Source: Planctomycetota bacterium
Lineage (GTDB): Bacteria > Planctomycetota > UBA8742 > UBA2392
Reading direction: 5' to 3'
Assembly (NCBI GenBank): GCA_020425515.1
Contig: JAGQRI010000183.1
Location: 1 to 37,667, forward strand
Length of the DNA stretch: 37,667 nt
Shown: positions 290-9,779 of the stretch, one piece after another
How the letters are laid out: each line of letters begins with the position of its first letter
Position numbering within the stretch: the first letter of the stretch is position 1
Made by a program: the position numbers and the translations under genes
Notes under the pieces: generated by a model
Databases searched by the model: none
Told to the model about the DNA's origin: nothing
Seen by the model: the letters and a program-made list of their open reading frames with translations, nothing else

Positions 290-2155
290 CTAGTCTTCGC
301 CGGCCAGCATGCTGCGGAACGTCCACTCGATGGGTTCATCAAGGTCATCGGCGCCGCTATGGCAGGTTTCGCAGGCTTTGCCCACCGCGGCCGCCTTCTT
401 GCCGACGTCGGCGGGGTCCTTGGCCTTCGCCAGTTCGACCGCCGTCAGGTGCAGGTTTTCGACCCATTTCTTCCACTTGGCCTCGTCGTAAAAGCTGCCG
501 GCGTTCTTCTCGTAGTAGTCCTCCACCAGCCCGGTCAGGCTGATCAGGTCCACGAGCGCCTGTTCGCGCGTGCGGTGTTCCTGTTCCGGGTCGCGATTGT
601 CGGTCAGCGCACCGGCCTCGATCAGGATGTCCTTGATGCGGTATTTCATCTGGTCCATCAGCTTGGTGGTGCTGAGGCGCTTCGGAATCTCGGTGGGCTT
701 CAGAGTCGCCAGTTCATCCTGTTTGAAGAAGAACTCGGACTTCGGCTCGGGGTCTTTCTTCACCGCAGGCACACCGAACACGGGCGGCGGGTCGATGCGG
801 ACTTCCTCTTTGTCGTGTTGCTTGTGGCAGCCCTCGCAGGCTTTGCGGAGCTCCTGGCGGGCCGCCTGCTGTGATTCGGCGTCCGGCGCCCGCAGCAGTT
901 TGCGCGCGGCCGCGGCGCCCTCGTGGGCAAACTTGTCCCAATCGGCCTTCTGGGCGTCCTCGATTTTCTCCGGGTAGTTGCCGACCAGGCTCTCGTGCAG
1001 CAGGGCGATGTCGCGCGCCGGGTTGTGGGCGTCCTCGGGCAAAGGCTCGGCCGAGTTACGCAGCTCCGCGTTGCGCTCGCCCATGGCCGTCATGATGTCC
1101 TCGGGCGAGTAATTGCGGAACCAGCCCTCGTGGTCGGACATGTCCTGGATCAGCGGAACGGCGGCGAAAATCAGGAACATCGCCACGCTCGCGATCAACC
1201 CGATCTGGATCGGCTTGCGCAGGCGTGCGGGCTGGTCGGCGGCTTTCTCGATGAACGGCAAAGCGACTACCGCGGCCGCGCCCAGCAGGGGCGGCAGGAA
1301 CAGGAACAGTATGTGCAGCGCGCCAGGTGGGACGATTTTCAGAATCGCGTACAGCGGCAGCGCGAACCACTCCGGGCGGGCCTCCGGGTACGGCACGCTC
1401 AGGTTGCCCTGCAGCCCCAGCGGCGCGGCCACCAGTACGGAAACCACTGTGACGATCGCCGCCACCGCGCCCGCCACACCGAAGTGCGGTGTGAGCGAGT
1501 TCTCGGTTTCGCCGTCCTTCCACAGCCAGCGCAGCAGGATCACAGTCAACGCGGGAAACACCAGCGCATGCAGCCCGAAGATGCGCGCGAGGGTTGCGCT
1601 GCCGATGCTGTCGCCCCCCTGAACGTGATGGCGCAGCAGCTCACCCAAAACGGGCAACTCGGCCAGGTAGCTGAGACGAATCGCCGTGCCGTGCAGCGCG
1701 TTCTGGTCGGCGGGCAGTGTCTGGCCAGTCAGGCTGAAACCCAGCACCAGCGCCAGCAGCAAGGCCGCCCGCCACCAGCGCCACTGGCCGGGACGCCGAA
1801 ACAGCCCCTTCCACGCCAGGTAGCCCAGGTAGGCGGCGCTCAGGACGATCAGCAGGTTGGATGCATGCCAGTGAATCGCCCGGATCACCGCGCCCAATGC
1901 CCCCGACTGAAACCAGGCCGTCGAGGCGTTGGCGTCTTCCATGCTGGGCACATAAACCACGGCCATGGCAACGCCGGTGCCGGCCAGCAGCGCCAGGCAG
2001 GTCAGGATTGTGGTGACGGCGAACCCGGCGATGGCGTCCTGCTCGATTGCCGGTTTGCGCACGATCTGGGATGTGCCGCGCCGCTCAAGCTCGAGCTTGA
2101 CCTCGGCCAGCAGCTCGTCGTGGATCTGCGTCGAAGATTCCGAGACGCCGCTCAT
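290..2155 (-). CDS. Cytochrome b of a Rieske/cytb complex, fused to a di-heme c-type tail; heme bH ligands absent
   Basis: This 621-residue membrane protein is the quinol-oxidising subunit of a bc-type complex. Residues 40-215 align without gaps to the four-helix core of cytochrome b6 (IRAIH at 91-95, then LTGQTLPADQ at 142-151). The Qo motif PEWF is at 261-264, followed by further helices to about 335. The soluble tail holds two c-heme sites, CEGCH (440-444) and CETCH (595-599), each at the end of a helical segment as in class II c cytochromes. His95 and His196 match the ligands of the p-side heme. The partners expected for the n-side heme are replaced: Tyr at 109 (His95+14) and Trp210/Leu211 (His196+14/+15). 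The start codon overlaps the Rieske stop by 4 bp (ATGA), so the two are translationally coupled. Family identity is secure; the missing-heme reading is an inference from alignment by eye. Confidence 0.93.
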   Translation of the reverse strand: MSGVSESSTQIHDELLAEVKLELERRGTSQIVRKPAIEQDAIAGFAVTTILTCLALLAGTGVAMAVVYVPSMEDANASTAWFQSGALGAVIRAIHWHASNLLIVLSAAYLGYLAWKGLFRRPGQWRWWRAALLLALVLGFSLTGQTLPADQNALHGTAIRLSYLAELPVLGELLRHHVQGGDSIGSATLARIFGLHALVFPALTVILLRWLWKDGETENSLTPHFGVAGAVAAIVTVVSVLVAAPLGLQGNLSVPYPEARPEWFALPLYAILKIVPPGALHILFLFLPPLLGAAAVVALPFIEKAADQPARLRKPIQIGLIASVAMFLIFAAVPLIQDMSDHEGWFRNYSPEDIMTAMGERNAELRNSAEPLPEDAHNPARDIALLHESLVGNYPEKIEDAQKADWDKFAHEGAAAARKLLRAPDAESQQAARQELRKACEGCHKQHDKEEVRIDPPPVFGVPAVKKDPEPKSEFFFKQDELATLKPTEIPKRLSTTKLMDQMKYRIKDILIEAGALTDNRDPEQEHRTREQALVDLISLTGLVEDYYEKNAGSFYDEAKWKKWVENLHLTAVELAKAKDPADVGKKAAAVGKACETCHSGADDLDEPIEWTFRSMLAGED

Positions 2156-2700
2156 GAGCTACCCCGCGGCGTTCGCTCTTCGGAGCCGACCATGAACTCC
2201 TGCCAGTCCACGAACAGCCACGGCTGTCCGCTGTAGTCGGCGATGCTCACGGCCAGGGGGTCCATGTCGCGCGGCGCCGGGCCCTTGGTGACCTTGCCGC
2301 TGACCTCGAACTGCGCGCCGTGGCACGGGCAGGCGAACTTGTCGTCCTTCACTTCGATCGTGCAGCCGGCATGCGGGCAGATCGAGCTCAGTGCAGTAAA
2401 AGAAGAAGCGTCCTCGGAATCGGCCGTGCGGACCACATAAACCAACTGGGTGCGTTTGCGCACGCGCCAGGCGTCGCGCACTGAAAGTGTCAGCTCAACC
2501 GCGAGAGGCTTGTCTTTCTCCAGCGCGCCCAGCTTGATCATGGGAACCAGCGGGCGAGAGCCTTCCGCTACGCTTTCGCCGGGTGTCGGCGGCAGGAACA
2601 CTGAGGCGCTGCCCACGCCGGCCGCGATAACACCGATGCCGCCGATCACGGCAATGCGCAGGAAGTTGCGGCGGTCTTCGGATTCCGGCCCGGAGGTCAT
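2152..2700 (-). CDS. Rieske [2Fe-2S] protein
   Basis: This 182-residue protein is the iron-sulfur subunit that takes electrons from quinol at the Qo site and passes them to cytochrome c. Both cluster motifs are present: CPHAGC (Cys108, His110, with Cys113 for the disulfide) and CPCHG (Cys124, His127, with Cys126 for the disulfide). The N-terminus has a twin-arginine motif (DRRNFLR) before a hydrophobic anchor, as expected for a Tat-exported, membrane-anchored Rieske protein. The canonical CTHLGC is changed to CPHAGC. I chose the ATG at 2700. A TTG at 2709 would add three residues, but neither start has a clear Shine-Dalgarno sequence because a 7-bp repeat array lies immediately upstream. It is the first gene of the Rieske-cytb pair. 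Confidence 0.95.
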   Translation of the reverse strand: MTSGPESEDRRNFLRIAVIGGIGVIAAGVGSASVFLPPTPGESVAEGSRPLVPMIKLGALEKDKPLAVELTLSVRDAWRVRKRTQLVYVVRTADSEDASSFTALSSICPHAGCTIEVKDDKFACPCHGAQFEVSGKVTKGPAPRDMDPLAVSIADYSGQPWLFVDWQEFMVGSEERTPRGSS

Positions 2701-2707
2701 GGTCAGC

Positions 2708-2735
2708 AATGATCAATGATCCATGTCCATTGTTC
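2708..2735. repeat. Heptamer repeat array 1 (AATGATC type)
   Basis: Four 7-bp units in register: AATGATC, AATGATC, CATGTCC, ATTGTTC. The array begins 7 bp upstream of the Rieske ATG and fills the space where a ribosome binding site would be. It is one of four such arrays in this window, each with a different consensus. Confidence 0.7.
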
Positions 2736-2746
2736 AACAGACCAGA

Positions 2747-3232
2747 TCAGGCGCGCACGCCTTTGCCCCAGCAGGCGGCGCAGATGCCGTAAATCTTCTG
2801 GCTGTGGTGGGTTGGGTGGAAGCCGTTTCCCTTGGCGACCTTGTCCTGCAGCTTTTCCATTTCTTCGTTGAAGAACTCGAGAATCTTGCCGCAGTTGGTG
2901 CAGATCAGGTGATCGTGGTGCGGGCGCCCCTCGGACAGCTCGTACACCTTGTAGCTGTCGCCGAACTGGTGTTCTTCCAGAATCTCGGCCTCGACCAGCA
3001 CCGAAAGCGCGCGGTAGACTGTGGCTTTGCTGACCCGCGGGCGCTCATTGCGGAACTGGTCGACCAGGTCGTCGGCCGTAAAGTGCGTTTTGTCCATCTC
3101 GAGGATTTTCTCAAGGATCTTGCGGCGCTGCGTGGTCAGCTTGAGTGACTTCCTTTGCAGAAAGCTCTCAAACTTGCCCAACAGCCCGTCGATGTCGATG
3201 GACGGCGCTTTTCGTGTCGATGAGCGCGCCAT
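2747..3232 (-). CDS. Fur-family metal-dependent transcriptional regulator
   Basis: This 161-residue protein has the Fur/PerR/Zur layout. A winged helix (about 28-90, with LTTQRRKIL and SKATVYRALSVL) is followed by the metal-binding dimerisation part. The latter shows the HHDHLIC segment (105-111) and two CxxC pairs, CTNC (111-114) and CAAC (151-154), the structural zinc site of many family members. It is expected to bind DNA as a dimer and repress iron, zinc or peroxide-response genes; the sequence alone does not say which metal. It lies 20 bp downstream of rbfA and about 46 bp upstream of the Rieske gene on the same strand. A 20-residue basic/Ser-rich extension precedes the usual start. Confidence 0.93.
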   Translation of the reverse strand: MARSSTRKAPSIDIDGLLGKFESFLQRKSLKLTTQRRKILEKILEMDKTHFTADDLVDQFRNERPRVSKATVYRALSVLVEAEILEEHQFGDSYKVYELSEGRPHHDHLICTNCGKILEFFNEEMEKLQDKVAKGNGFHPTHHSQKIYGICAACWGKGVRA

Positions 3233-7319: not shown

Positions 7320-9779
7320 ATGCCGCAACAACGCAAGCCCAGCTCACCGCTCAAGGACGCGCTCCGGATTTTTGCACGCAACAAACCGGCGCTGGTTGCG
7401 TTCTTCATGCTCGCCTTGCTGGCGGCTTCAGCCGCCACGGGCGCCGTCTGGACCGGCAAGCGCGCCGACGCCGCCGAGCGCGTCCGCATGGAGGAAGCAA
7501 AACTCGTCGGCGACAACTACAAGACCGAAGCGGTGGAAGGGGCCGTGCTTGACCCCGTTTCGCCCGAGCTCAAAGACACATTCCTGCCACCACTTTCGAA
7601 CAGTAACGCCCACCCGGACGAGAAATTCTACTGGCTGGGTACCGATCACCTCGGACGCGATGTGCTGGCTAGACTGTGGGCGGGTAGCACCATCAGCCTG
7701 ATCATAGGCTTTCTCGCGGTCGGCATTTCCATCGTGCTCGGCATCAGCCTTGGCGGTATCGCGGGCTACTTCGGACGCTCGCGTGTAGGCCTGATCGTGC
7801 TGGCCACCCTGTTGCTGCTGCTTGTGTGGGGCATTCTGCTGGCGGCAGGTCTGCCATTACCGGCCTGGATATGCTTCGGCCTGGGCATGGCTCTGCTGAT
7901 GGCGCAACTGGGTATCTCCGCCGTCGGCGCGCGCTGGAAGTCGGTTGCGTTTTTTGTCGTGGTCGTCGCCCTGTTCGCCTCGTTCAGCCTTTACAACCAT
8001 CATGTGGAAACCGCCACTCCGGAGGGACAGGTCTACGCGGAAGCAGCCAGGACACATCGCAAGTCCTATGACGAACTGCTGGCGATCCGGGACTACGGCC
8101 GCGAAGTCAAAGGCTGGGAAGAATCCGCGCCGGACAACCTCAAGAATCTGAACGCCGGCAAGGATATGCCCGAATGGCTTTATGCCGGCCAACTCAGAGT
8201 CGAAATCGGCACCCGGCAACTCGATCTGCAGGTCGCCCGTCTGGATGGGGCGAAGTACGATGCCGGGAACCAGCAGAACCTGCGCCTCGCCCGCGACCAG
8301 CAAGATCGCGCCGAACATCTGGAAGGATTCATCGATGCCTACGCCGACCGCAACAAGGAGGCGGCCGAGAACGAACAAGAGGCAATGGCCGAACGCGACC
8401 GGCTCTTCAAGGAAGATCGCCGCGATGAAGGTCGCGCCATGGCCGAGCGCGCGTCCGAATTCGCAATCCGCAAGAACACTTTCGACCCCGAGGCGCTGAA
8501 AGCCCGCATCGCCAAAACCCGCGCCATCGGGCAGGCGAACGAAGCCTATTACAGGAAGGTAATCGACGCGGCCGCTGATCCGCTCCAGACCCGCGCGGAG
8601 GCTATTGAAAACGCCGACAAGGCACTCCAGAAAATCTTGGAAAGCGGTGCGACGAACGATGAGTCGTTGCGTGCACGGCAGTTTGAAGTCGAAGATATTC
8701 TCCGAACCTGGGCGCAGGCATCGGCGGAATTCGATCTTGCCGACGCCAACCTGCGCATTCAGGCACTCAACGCGTCTATTGAAGATCGCAAGGCGGACGC
8801 AGCTGAAGGCGACGCCGGCCTGGCCGAACTCAACAAGCAGCTTGCTGCGGCCAAAGGCGCAAAGACCAAGGCCGAAAAGGCCGTCGCCGACGCGAAGGAA
8901 AGCCTTGAGGGACTGAAGAAAGCAAAGGAAGAATCCGACGCGGATGTGGCCGGAAAGCTGCTGGCTCCCTGGAGTGTGCAGGGCAGCAGCGGCTTGGTCG
9001 ATCGCCGCGGCAAGCTCCGCAAGGCCTATGTCATCCGTTACGAGACCGCCATGCGTTACGGGCTCACGGCACTGCACGTAGCGGAAGAATTGAACGGAAG
9101 CTACCGCTACTCGTTCTATCGCTTCAGCAGCCACTTCCTGACAACAACGATGCTGTATCTGCTGCTGGTCGTTGCAGCACTGACAATCATGGCGGCGTCC
9201 CAGGCCGTCGTGACCGACAAGCTGAAAGGTCTGCGGTTGGCCTATCTGCCGACAATTTCCGTCGACGACCTCGTTATGCGGTTCACCGAAATCATGCTGA
9301 CCGTTCCGGTGATCTTTCTGATCCTTGCGATCCTCGCGATCTTCGAAAAAGACGTATACATCACCATGGGTGTCATCGGCCTGACAAGCTGGATGGGCAC
9401 GACACGTTTCGTGCGCGCGGAGATTCTGTCCCTGCGTGAGCAGGACTTCGTTCAGTCCGCCCAGGCGCTCGGACTTTCCGACTTCCGTATCATCTGGCGA
9501 CACCTGGTTCCGAACGCGATCAGTCCTGTGCTCGTTAGCGCGACACTTGGCGTCGCGGGCGCGGTACTTGCCGAATCGACCTTGAGCTTCCTTGGCATCG
9601 GCGCCAAAGCCGACCAGACAACCTGGGGCCTGATCTTGAGCGAGGGTCGCGAGTACATCTTTGACGCGCCTTGGCTGACGTGGATCCCGGGTATTGCGAT
9701 CCTGATTACCGTACTGTCCTTCAACCTGCTGGGTGAGGGGCTTCGCGAGGCGTTCAATCCCAAGCTGCGCGGAAGGTAG
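7320..9779 (+). CDS. ABC transporter permease, OppC/DppC type, with ~495-residue internal insertion
   Basis: At 819 residues this is more than twice the usual OppC length (about 300). The normal N-terminal part is present: a first TM at about 24-44, the GTDHLGRDVLARLWAG motif at 107-122, then TM helices to GGIAGYFGR (145-153). The family then normally continues directly with the VDxxLMR helix, which here begins at 648 (VDDLVMRFTEIMLTVP). The rest is normal, with EAA loop DFVQSAQALGLSDFRIIWRH and LSFLGIGAK. The insertion (about 154-647) contains extra hydrophobic segments near 155-175, 180-200 and 207-225. A long charged, Ala/Glu/Lys-rich, probably coiled-coil region runs from 228 to 600, followed by one more TM near 605-627. 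There is no frameshift. Function of the insertion is unknown; it could be a periplasmic spacer for the enlarged binding protein. Confidence 0.92.
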   Translation: MPQQRKPSSPLKDALRIFARNKPALVAFFMLALLAASAATGAVWTGKRADAAERVRMEEAKLVGDNYKTEAVEGAVLDPVSPELKDTFLPPLSNSNAHPDEKFYWLGTDHLGRDVLARLWAGSTISLIIGFLAVGISIVLGISLGGIAGYFGRSRVGLIVLATLLLLLVWGILLAAGLPLPAWICFGLGMALLMAQLGISAVGARWKSVAFFVVVVALFASFSLYNHHVETATPEGQVYAEAARTHRKSYDELLAIRDYGREVKGWEESAPDNLKNLNAGKDMPEWLYAGQLRVEIGTRQLDLQVARLDGAKYDAGNQQNLRLARDQQDRAEHLEGFIDAYADRNKEAAENEQEAMAERDRLFKEDRRDEGRAMAERASEFAIRKNTFDPEALKARIAKTRAIGQANEAYYRKVIDAAADPLQTRAEAIENADKALQKILESGATNDESLRARQFEVEDILRTWAQASAEFDLADANLRIQALNASIEDRKADAAEGDAGLAELNKQLAAAKGAKTKAEKAVADAKESLEGLKKAKEESDADVAGKLLAPWSVQGSSGLVDRRGKLRKAYVIRYETAMRYGLTALHVAEELNGSYRYSFYRFSSHFLTTTMLYLLLVVAALTIMAASQAVVTDKLKGLRLAYLPTISVDDLVMRFTEIMLTVPVIFLILAILAIFEKDVYITMGVIGLTSWMGTTRFVRAEILSLREQDFVQSAQALGLSDFRIIWRHLVPNAISPVLVSATLGVAGAVLAESTLSFLGIGAKADQTTWGLILSEGREYIFDAPWLTWIPGIAILITVLSFNLLGEGLREAFNPKLRGR

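Follow-up and report, generated by a model that had tools for sequence, protein, structure and literature searches.

Organization of the locus

The window, that is the whole stretch of DNA analysed (37,667 nucleotides), is the entire contig C381 of a 4.1 Mb planctomycete MAG (genome G000). Near its left end two overlapping genes encode a Rieske protein and a cytochrome b fused to c-type heme domains. The features are listed below; bL and bH denote the p-side and the n-side b heme, f1 is the family of the window's genome, and residue numbers preceded by b6 refer to cytochrome b6.

290..2155, minus strand: fusion protein of 621 aa, cytochrome b (b6 part and subunit-IV part, residues ~41-341) plus two c-type heme domains
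1871..1873, minus strand: H95, bL ligand (b6 H86), retained
1568..1570, minus strand: H196, bL ligand (b6 H187), retained
1829..1831, minus strand: Y109 at the position of a bH ligand (b6 H100); Tyr invariant in f1
1523..1531, minus strand: R209-W210-L211 at the position of the second bH ligand (b6 H202); R209 invariant in f1, no His
2015..2017, minus strand: V47 in place of the bH-side glycine of helix A (b6 G37)
1766..1768, minus strand: A130 in place of the bH-side glycine of helix C (b6 G121)
1364..1375, minus strand: PEWF, Qo-site motif, retained
806..1123, minus strand: first cytochrome c-556-like four-helix domain, residues ~345-450, with invariant M355 and CXXCH at 440-444
341..673, minus strand: second cytochrome c-556-like four-helix domain, residues ~495-605, with invariant M500 and CXXCH at 595-599
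2152..2709, minus strand: Rieske [2Fe-2S] protein, start codon TTG or an ATG nine bases in; overlaps the cytochrome b gene by 4 nt
2308..2379, minus strand: Rieske cluster motifs CPHAGC ... CPCHGAQF, with Ala and Phe at the positions normally taken by Ser and Tyr
2747..3232, minus strand: Fur-family regulator, an upstream neighbour also in several relatives

Farther from the gene pair the window encodes an 819 aa ABC-transporter permease (7320-9779, plus strand) whose membrane parts are separated by a long helical and charged insert, several hundred residues in length. In most f1 loci the ABC transporter and the Rieske operon are divergently oriented.

The n-side heme site

Residues 50-208 matched cytochrome b6 (1vf5) in a phmmer search with E=9e-20, and there were no gaps between the first and the second bL ligand, in agreement with the gap-free alignment described in a first-pass annotation of this DNA. 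The AlphaFold2 model of the 621-aa protein (mean pLDDT 87) contained the expected helices and matched solved cytochromes b, the closest fits covering ~312-340 columns at 4-5 Å.

The bL ligands H95 and H196, which the same annotation had reported as kept, were invariant in all 13 aligned f1 members. The bH ligands were absent from all 13: there is Tyr at H95+14, Arg at helix D +13, and no His. In the window protein H95+14 is Y109, and H196+14/+15 is W210/L211. When read in the same register, the canonical planctomycete relatives (n=74) have His at +14 and His at +14 or +15, indicating that the helix alignment is not shifted in the window protein and that its bH ligands are missing as originally proposed. 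Misaligned or shifted helices, which would have refuted the proposal, were rejected on this ground; the AlphaFold2 model also backs the helix assignment, without providing distances. A sequencing or assembly error was rejected as well, for the same state was found in f1 sequences from other genomes.

The loss extends to the pocket. Space for the hemes is provided by four glycines of helices A and C, of which the bL pair (b6 G51 and G135) is kept and the bH pair (b6 G37 and G121) is lost. Across f1, G51, G135, H86, H187 and R83 (b6 numbering) were each retained in 13/13 members; position G37 is occupied by V, A or I (Gly in 0/13), position G121 by A or C (Gly in 1/13), and the conserved n-side R114 is lost (0/13). 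In the canonical reference set (n=74) G51, G121, G135, H86 and H187 were each present in 74/74, and G37 in 58 of the 61 rows with a residue aligned there. Since the bH-side residues are lost and their bL-side counterparts are invariant, the loss is confined to the n-side heme site. The motif PEW[FYW] was found in 13/13 f1 members, and the Rieske gene adjoins, so that the earlier description of an intact Qo motif and Rieske partner holds. That both ligands, the bH glycines and the n-side arginine disappeared together throughout f1 strongly supports, at the level of the alignment, the suggestion that the loss of bH was coordinated rather than the outcome of random change.

No second n-side His pair, the other finding that would have refuted the proposal, was detected by sequence among the f1 proteins: the only further invariant His in the cytochrome b part, H155, follows LPxDQ and is on the p-side. 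Heme c_n was considered as a substitute for bH and rejected. Ten f1 members have a residue aligned with b6 Cys35, and it is Leu or Met in each; without a Cys there is no sign of heme c_n. From these data we infer that the complex lacks an n-side heme.

Distribution and selection

Relatives were sought in 392 genomes of the phylum and in 20 genomes of the class. The survey covered only Planctomycetota, and the contig scan gave one locus. Full-length or partial relatives, ~40-77% identical, were found in 13 other genomes of f1, making 14 carriers with the window's genome; the 13 distinct sequences that were aligned all show the loss of bH. One f1 genome had no match at all, and another had a match to the tail only. 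A Rieske-cytochrome b gene pair is present at every f1 locus, and the Rieske gene has both Cys-His motifs.

For two close pairs dN/dS was 0.107 and 0.082 (~0.08-0.09 in the cytochrome b part). Only close pairs were considered, dS being too saturated in more distant ones. The residues of bL, the Qo site, the Rieske cluster and the c hemes are invariant across five genera, and there are no stop codons. The bH-less cytochrome b is thus under strong purifying selection.

A more distant relative, L018, was found in family f2 (genome G180), which belongs to the same taxonomic order. It has lost three of the four b-heme ligands (H95 is Arg) and also G51, and retains the Rieske protein, PEWF and two CXXCH motifs. 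Possibly, no regular b heme is left in this protein.

Rieske partner and c-type tail

In Rieske proteins a Ser and a Tyr are known to raise the potential. At these positions 14/14 of the Rieske proteins have Ala and Phe, from which a low Rieske potential is inferred. The effect of the Ser/Tyr residues on the potential is well established and has also been discussed for anammox Rieske proteins (PMC12954380).

The tail consists of two four-helix domains (AlphaFold2 helices 351-446 and 496-600), each with CXXCH in the last helix, at the end of the modelled bundle, and a Met (M355, M500) in the first. These Met residues are invariant in f1 and are candidates for the sixth ligand, although ligation itself has not been shown. 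In the PDB the tail matched cytochrome c-556 (1s05, E 6.9e-5); against Pfam PF01322 it scored 25.9 bits, slightly below the cut-off of 26.5. The tails of the canonical and f23 relatives that were scanned are of class I, unlike the f1 tail.

Recurrence of bH loss in Planctomycetota

A survey of planctomycete homologues had been suggested as a check in the first-pass annotation; beyond the 13 aligned f1 members, it revealed the same loss in other lineages. The set comprised 98 distinct planctomycete cytochromes b. The full complement of four ligands is present in 74 of them; both bH ligands are missing from 18 and one of the two from six. The bL ligands are retained in 23 of these 24 bH-defective proteins, the exception being L018. 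On a maximum likelihood tree computed without the bH ligand columns the ligand states require ~7 changes by parsimony (bootstrap 7-8 for the canonical label), and three of the seven are forced by the starred branches alone. The placement of L102, L109 and L129, which form long branches, is unsure. L124 is nested among canonical f28 proteins in a supported clade, and L027/L090 lie within a supported f23 clade that has canonical members. For these proteins loss from a canonical ancestor is therefore the natural direction. L090 shows the same pattern as f1, with Tyr at +14, Ala at both glycine positions and Gly at R114.

In six proteins (L022, L023, L097 and L101 of f18, L027 of f23 and L124 of f28) only the second bH ligand is missing, the first one and G121 being kept; bH is possibly five-coordinate in these. 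The b6-type proteins L102/L146 (G300) and L129/L147 (G072), which have no bH ligands, are encoded beside multiheme cytochromes with 9, 16 and (G300) 17 CXXCH. The Rieske-like protein adjoining L102 reads CTLADPC, and its first cluster His seems to be lost.

Other quinol oxidoreductases in the same genomes

An ActC homologue of Alternative Complex III (ACIII) was found in 14/14 f1/f2 genomes tested (E<1e-225). The f1 and f2 genomes also have heme-copper oxidases. In the window's genome there is an actABC-type ACIII cluster (L141). ActB/ActC-type subunits are not in the Rieske-cytochrome b operon; they are located elsewhere in the genome. Other bH-defective genomes have ACIII (G118, G164, G300, G372, G072) or several cytochrome b copies (G042, G132, G063, G130, and G212 via locus L128), so that every tested genome with a bH-defective copy has one or the other, and none among those tested relies solely on a bH-defective complex. 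ACIII is, however, also present in 18/30 canonical genomes, hence ACIII alone was not shown to be enriched with bH loss. An MqnA/MqnD-family pair was found in 9/9 genomes tested, which suggests menaquinone as the substrate.

The recurrent neighbours in f1 are the Fur regulator, the ABC transporter and kinase-TPR proteins. An n-side outlet encoded nearby was rejected on the basis of these neighbours, with the reservation that in the window the contig ends 289 bases past the cytochrome b gene. Another cytochrome b of the genome, encoded on contig C62 (L003, 2864-4603), has four ligands and a ferredoxin-like domain and adjoins heme-copper/NOR-like and SCO-like genes. It was rejected as a partner on account of its canonical ligands, ferredoxin-like tail and position beside the heme-copper/NOR-like gene. 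A canonical split b6/subunit-IV complex also occurs in some f1 genera (L060, L061, L063 and L066 in G151, G226, G068 and G265), in G226 and G068 near a heme-copper oxidase gene.

Proposed function

The site of bH is lost, yet the protein is under selection across the family; quinol is therefore probably oxidized without the energy-doubling Q-cycle. If bH is missing, transfer of an electron from bL to the n-side should be too slow to be useful. The Qo site, bL, the Rieske protein and the two c hemes are conserved, which suggests that quinol is oxidized and that both of its electrons exit on the p-side. We consider it probable that the complex is a non-Q-cycle menaquinol:cytochrome c oxidoreductase of this kind, with the reservation that the ligand loss is observed and the mechanism inferred. 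The absence of a Q-cycle is, in our judgement, a sound inference, for which there are no biochemical data.

Each monomer is predicted to contain one [2Fe-2S] cluster, one b heme (bL) and two c-556-like hemes. Menaquinol would be oxidized at Qo, and its first electron would reach the fused c hemes via the Rieske protein. The second would be held temporarily on bL and then leave via the re-oxidized Rieske protein, a return that is itself inferred. The net reaction would be MKH2 + 2 c(ox) -> MK + 2 H+(p) + 2 c(red), without n-side quinone reduction and without the gain of a Q-cycle. The inferred absence of a Q-cycle agrees with the engineered bH knock-out of Rhodobacter capsulatus, in which bL was reduced and the antimycin-sensitive phase was lost (PMC4330944); such knock-outs still assemble (PMC4330944, PMC4807273).

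Several points count against the non-Q-cycle reading. Neither spectra nor redox titrations nor activity measurements stand behind it. The turnover of engineered bH-less bc1 is poor, and a natural version would therefore need some unknown compensation. The invariant Tyr109 could in principle bind heme iron, but the lost glycines argue otherwise. A pure two-step Rieske route gives no obvious reason for the retention of bL; the f2 relative L018, which lost one bL ligand too, suggests that some of these complexes can do without bL. The second electron may go back by way of the Rieske protein, or bL may hand it on to a c heme.

The latter route is the core of an alternative in which one c-556 heme is fed by the Rieske protein and the other directly by bL; both branches would then end on the p-side, with the fused hemes as the two outlets. 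Such a p-side split is favoured by the two c-type domains with their invariant Met residues, by the fully conserved bL pocket and by a tail unlike the class I tails found in the scanned canonical relatives. We nevertheless regard it as unlikely: two CXXCH motifs occur also in relatives with all four b ligands, hence two tail hemes do not require the loss of bH, the bH-less f23 proteins retain class I tails, and no measured distance between bL and a heme c supports it. Much less credible is a signalling or safety device in which, as in antimycin-blocked bc1, one electron is passed and semiquinone or superoxide reports the redox state, perhaps to the product of the upstream Fur-family gene. An antimycin-like block is what the bH knock-outs would lead one to expect (PMC4330944) and the Fur-family gene lies directly upstream in the window and in several relatives, but it is not adjacent at every f1 locus, and superoxide production is no proven selected function.

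It is just as improbable that an n-side heme is still bound, high-spin or ligated by Tyr109, or that another n-side cofactor replaces bH. Tyr109 is invariant in f1, and L090, a separate case in f23, has Tyr there too; against this, both bH glycines have been replaced by bulkier residues, R114 is lost, and there is neither a further invariant n-side His nor a Cys at the position of b6 Cys35. The least plausible explanation, a decaying second copy without function, is already largely refuted. It could appeal to the ACIII present in every f1 genome tested, which may make the complex dispensable, and to the further loss in L018 (H95 to Arg), but it is contradicted by the low dN/dS, the invariant bL, Qo, Rieske and c-heme residues in five genera and the lack of stop codons.

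The two-heme transmembrane path is treated as essential to Rieske/cytochrome b enzymes. Extending the preferred reading, in which quinol is oxidized and both electrons exit on the p-side, one can tentatively suppose, though we would not yet favour it, that in nature the Q-cycle was given up repeatedly in the presence of another quinol:cytochrome c oxidoreductase, Qo and bL being kept and both electrons sent to the p-side, possibly from bL directly to a fused c heme. If true, this would be a new wiring of the Qo site. A natural, selected complex with bL and no bH site makes the long-debated role of Qo-site quinol oxidation and bL without a Q-cycle testable, as well as the handling of short-circuits and superoxide and the question of whether bifurcation can be lost with the enzyme still useful. 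The recurrence in Planctomycetota offers a ready comparison of close canonical and bH-less relatives (f23).

Comparison with known systems

With the cytochrome b6f and bc1 complexes the window protein shares the cytochrome b fold, the bL ligands and glycines, the PEW motif of Qo, the Rieske partner and p-side heme c. It differs in having neither bH ligands nor bH glycines, hence no expected path to the n-side quinone site, and in two class II c-556-like domains that replace cytochrome f or c1. The planctomycete fusions of cytochrome b with two class I cytochromes c come from the same phylum and have the same order, Rieske protein then cytochrome b with two CXXCH, but they keep all four b-heme ligands and their tails belong to PF00034/PF13442. 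The best NCBIfam match of the b6 part was the ExtP b-type cytochrome (NF040969, 98 bits); this is far under the family cut-off (290 bits), and the window locus has no metal-reduction operon.

No natural bH-less Rieske/cytochrome b complex was found in the openly available literature, which leaves subscription papers largely uncovered. The engineered bH knock-out of R. capsulatus bc1 (H212N; PMC4330944, PMC4807273) likewise has bL, lacks bH and has an intact Qo site and Rieske protein. It is, however, a laboratory mutant defective at the level of bH/Qi, whereas in the window protein the loss is natural, the pocket is gone too and the protein is under selection. ACIII, found in the same genomes, resembles the complex in the proposed net reaction, from quinol to p-side cytochrome c, but is built from unrelated subunits (ActA-F, with NrfD-type subunits and a pentaheme protein) and has no Rieske protein and no cytochrome b. 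For the Rieske/cytochrome b complexes of the anammox planctomycete Kuenenia an unusual routing of the low-potential electron has also been proposed (PMC12954380). There, n-side outlets are proposed to have been gained, in the form of NAD(P) oxidoreductase subunits and an extra b heme, whereas in the window protein the n-side path was lost.
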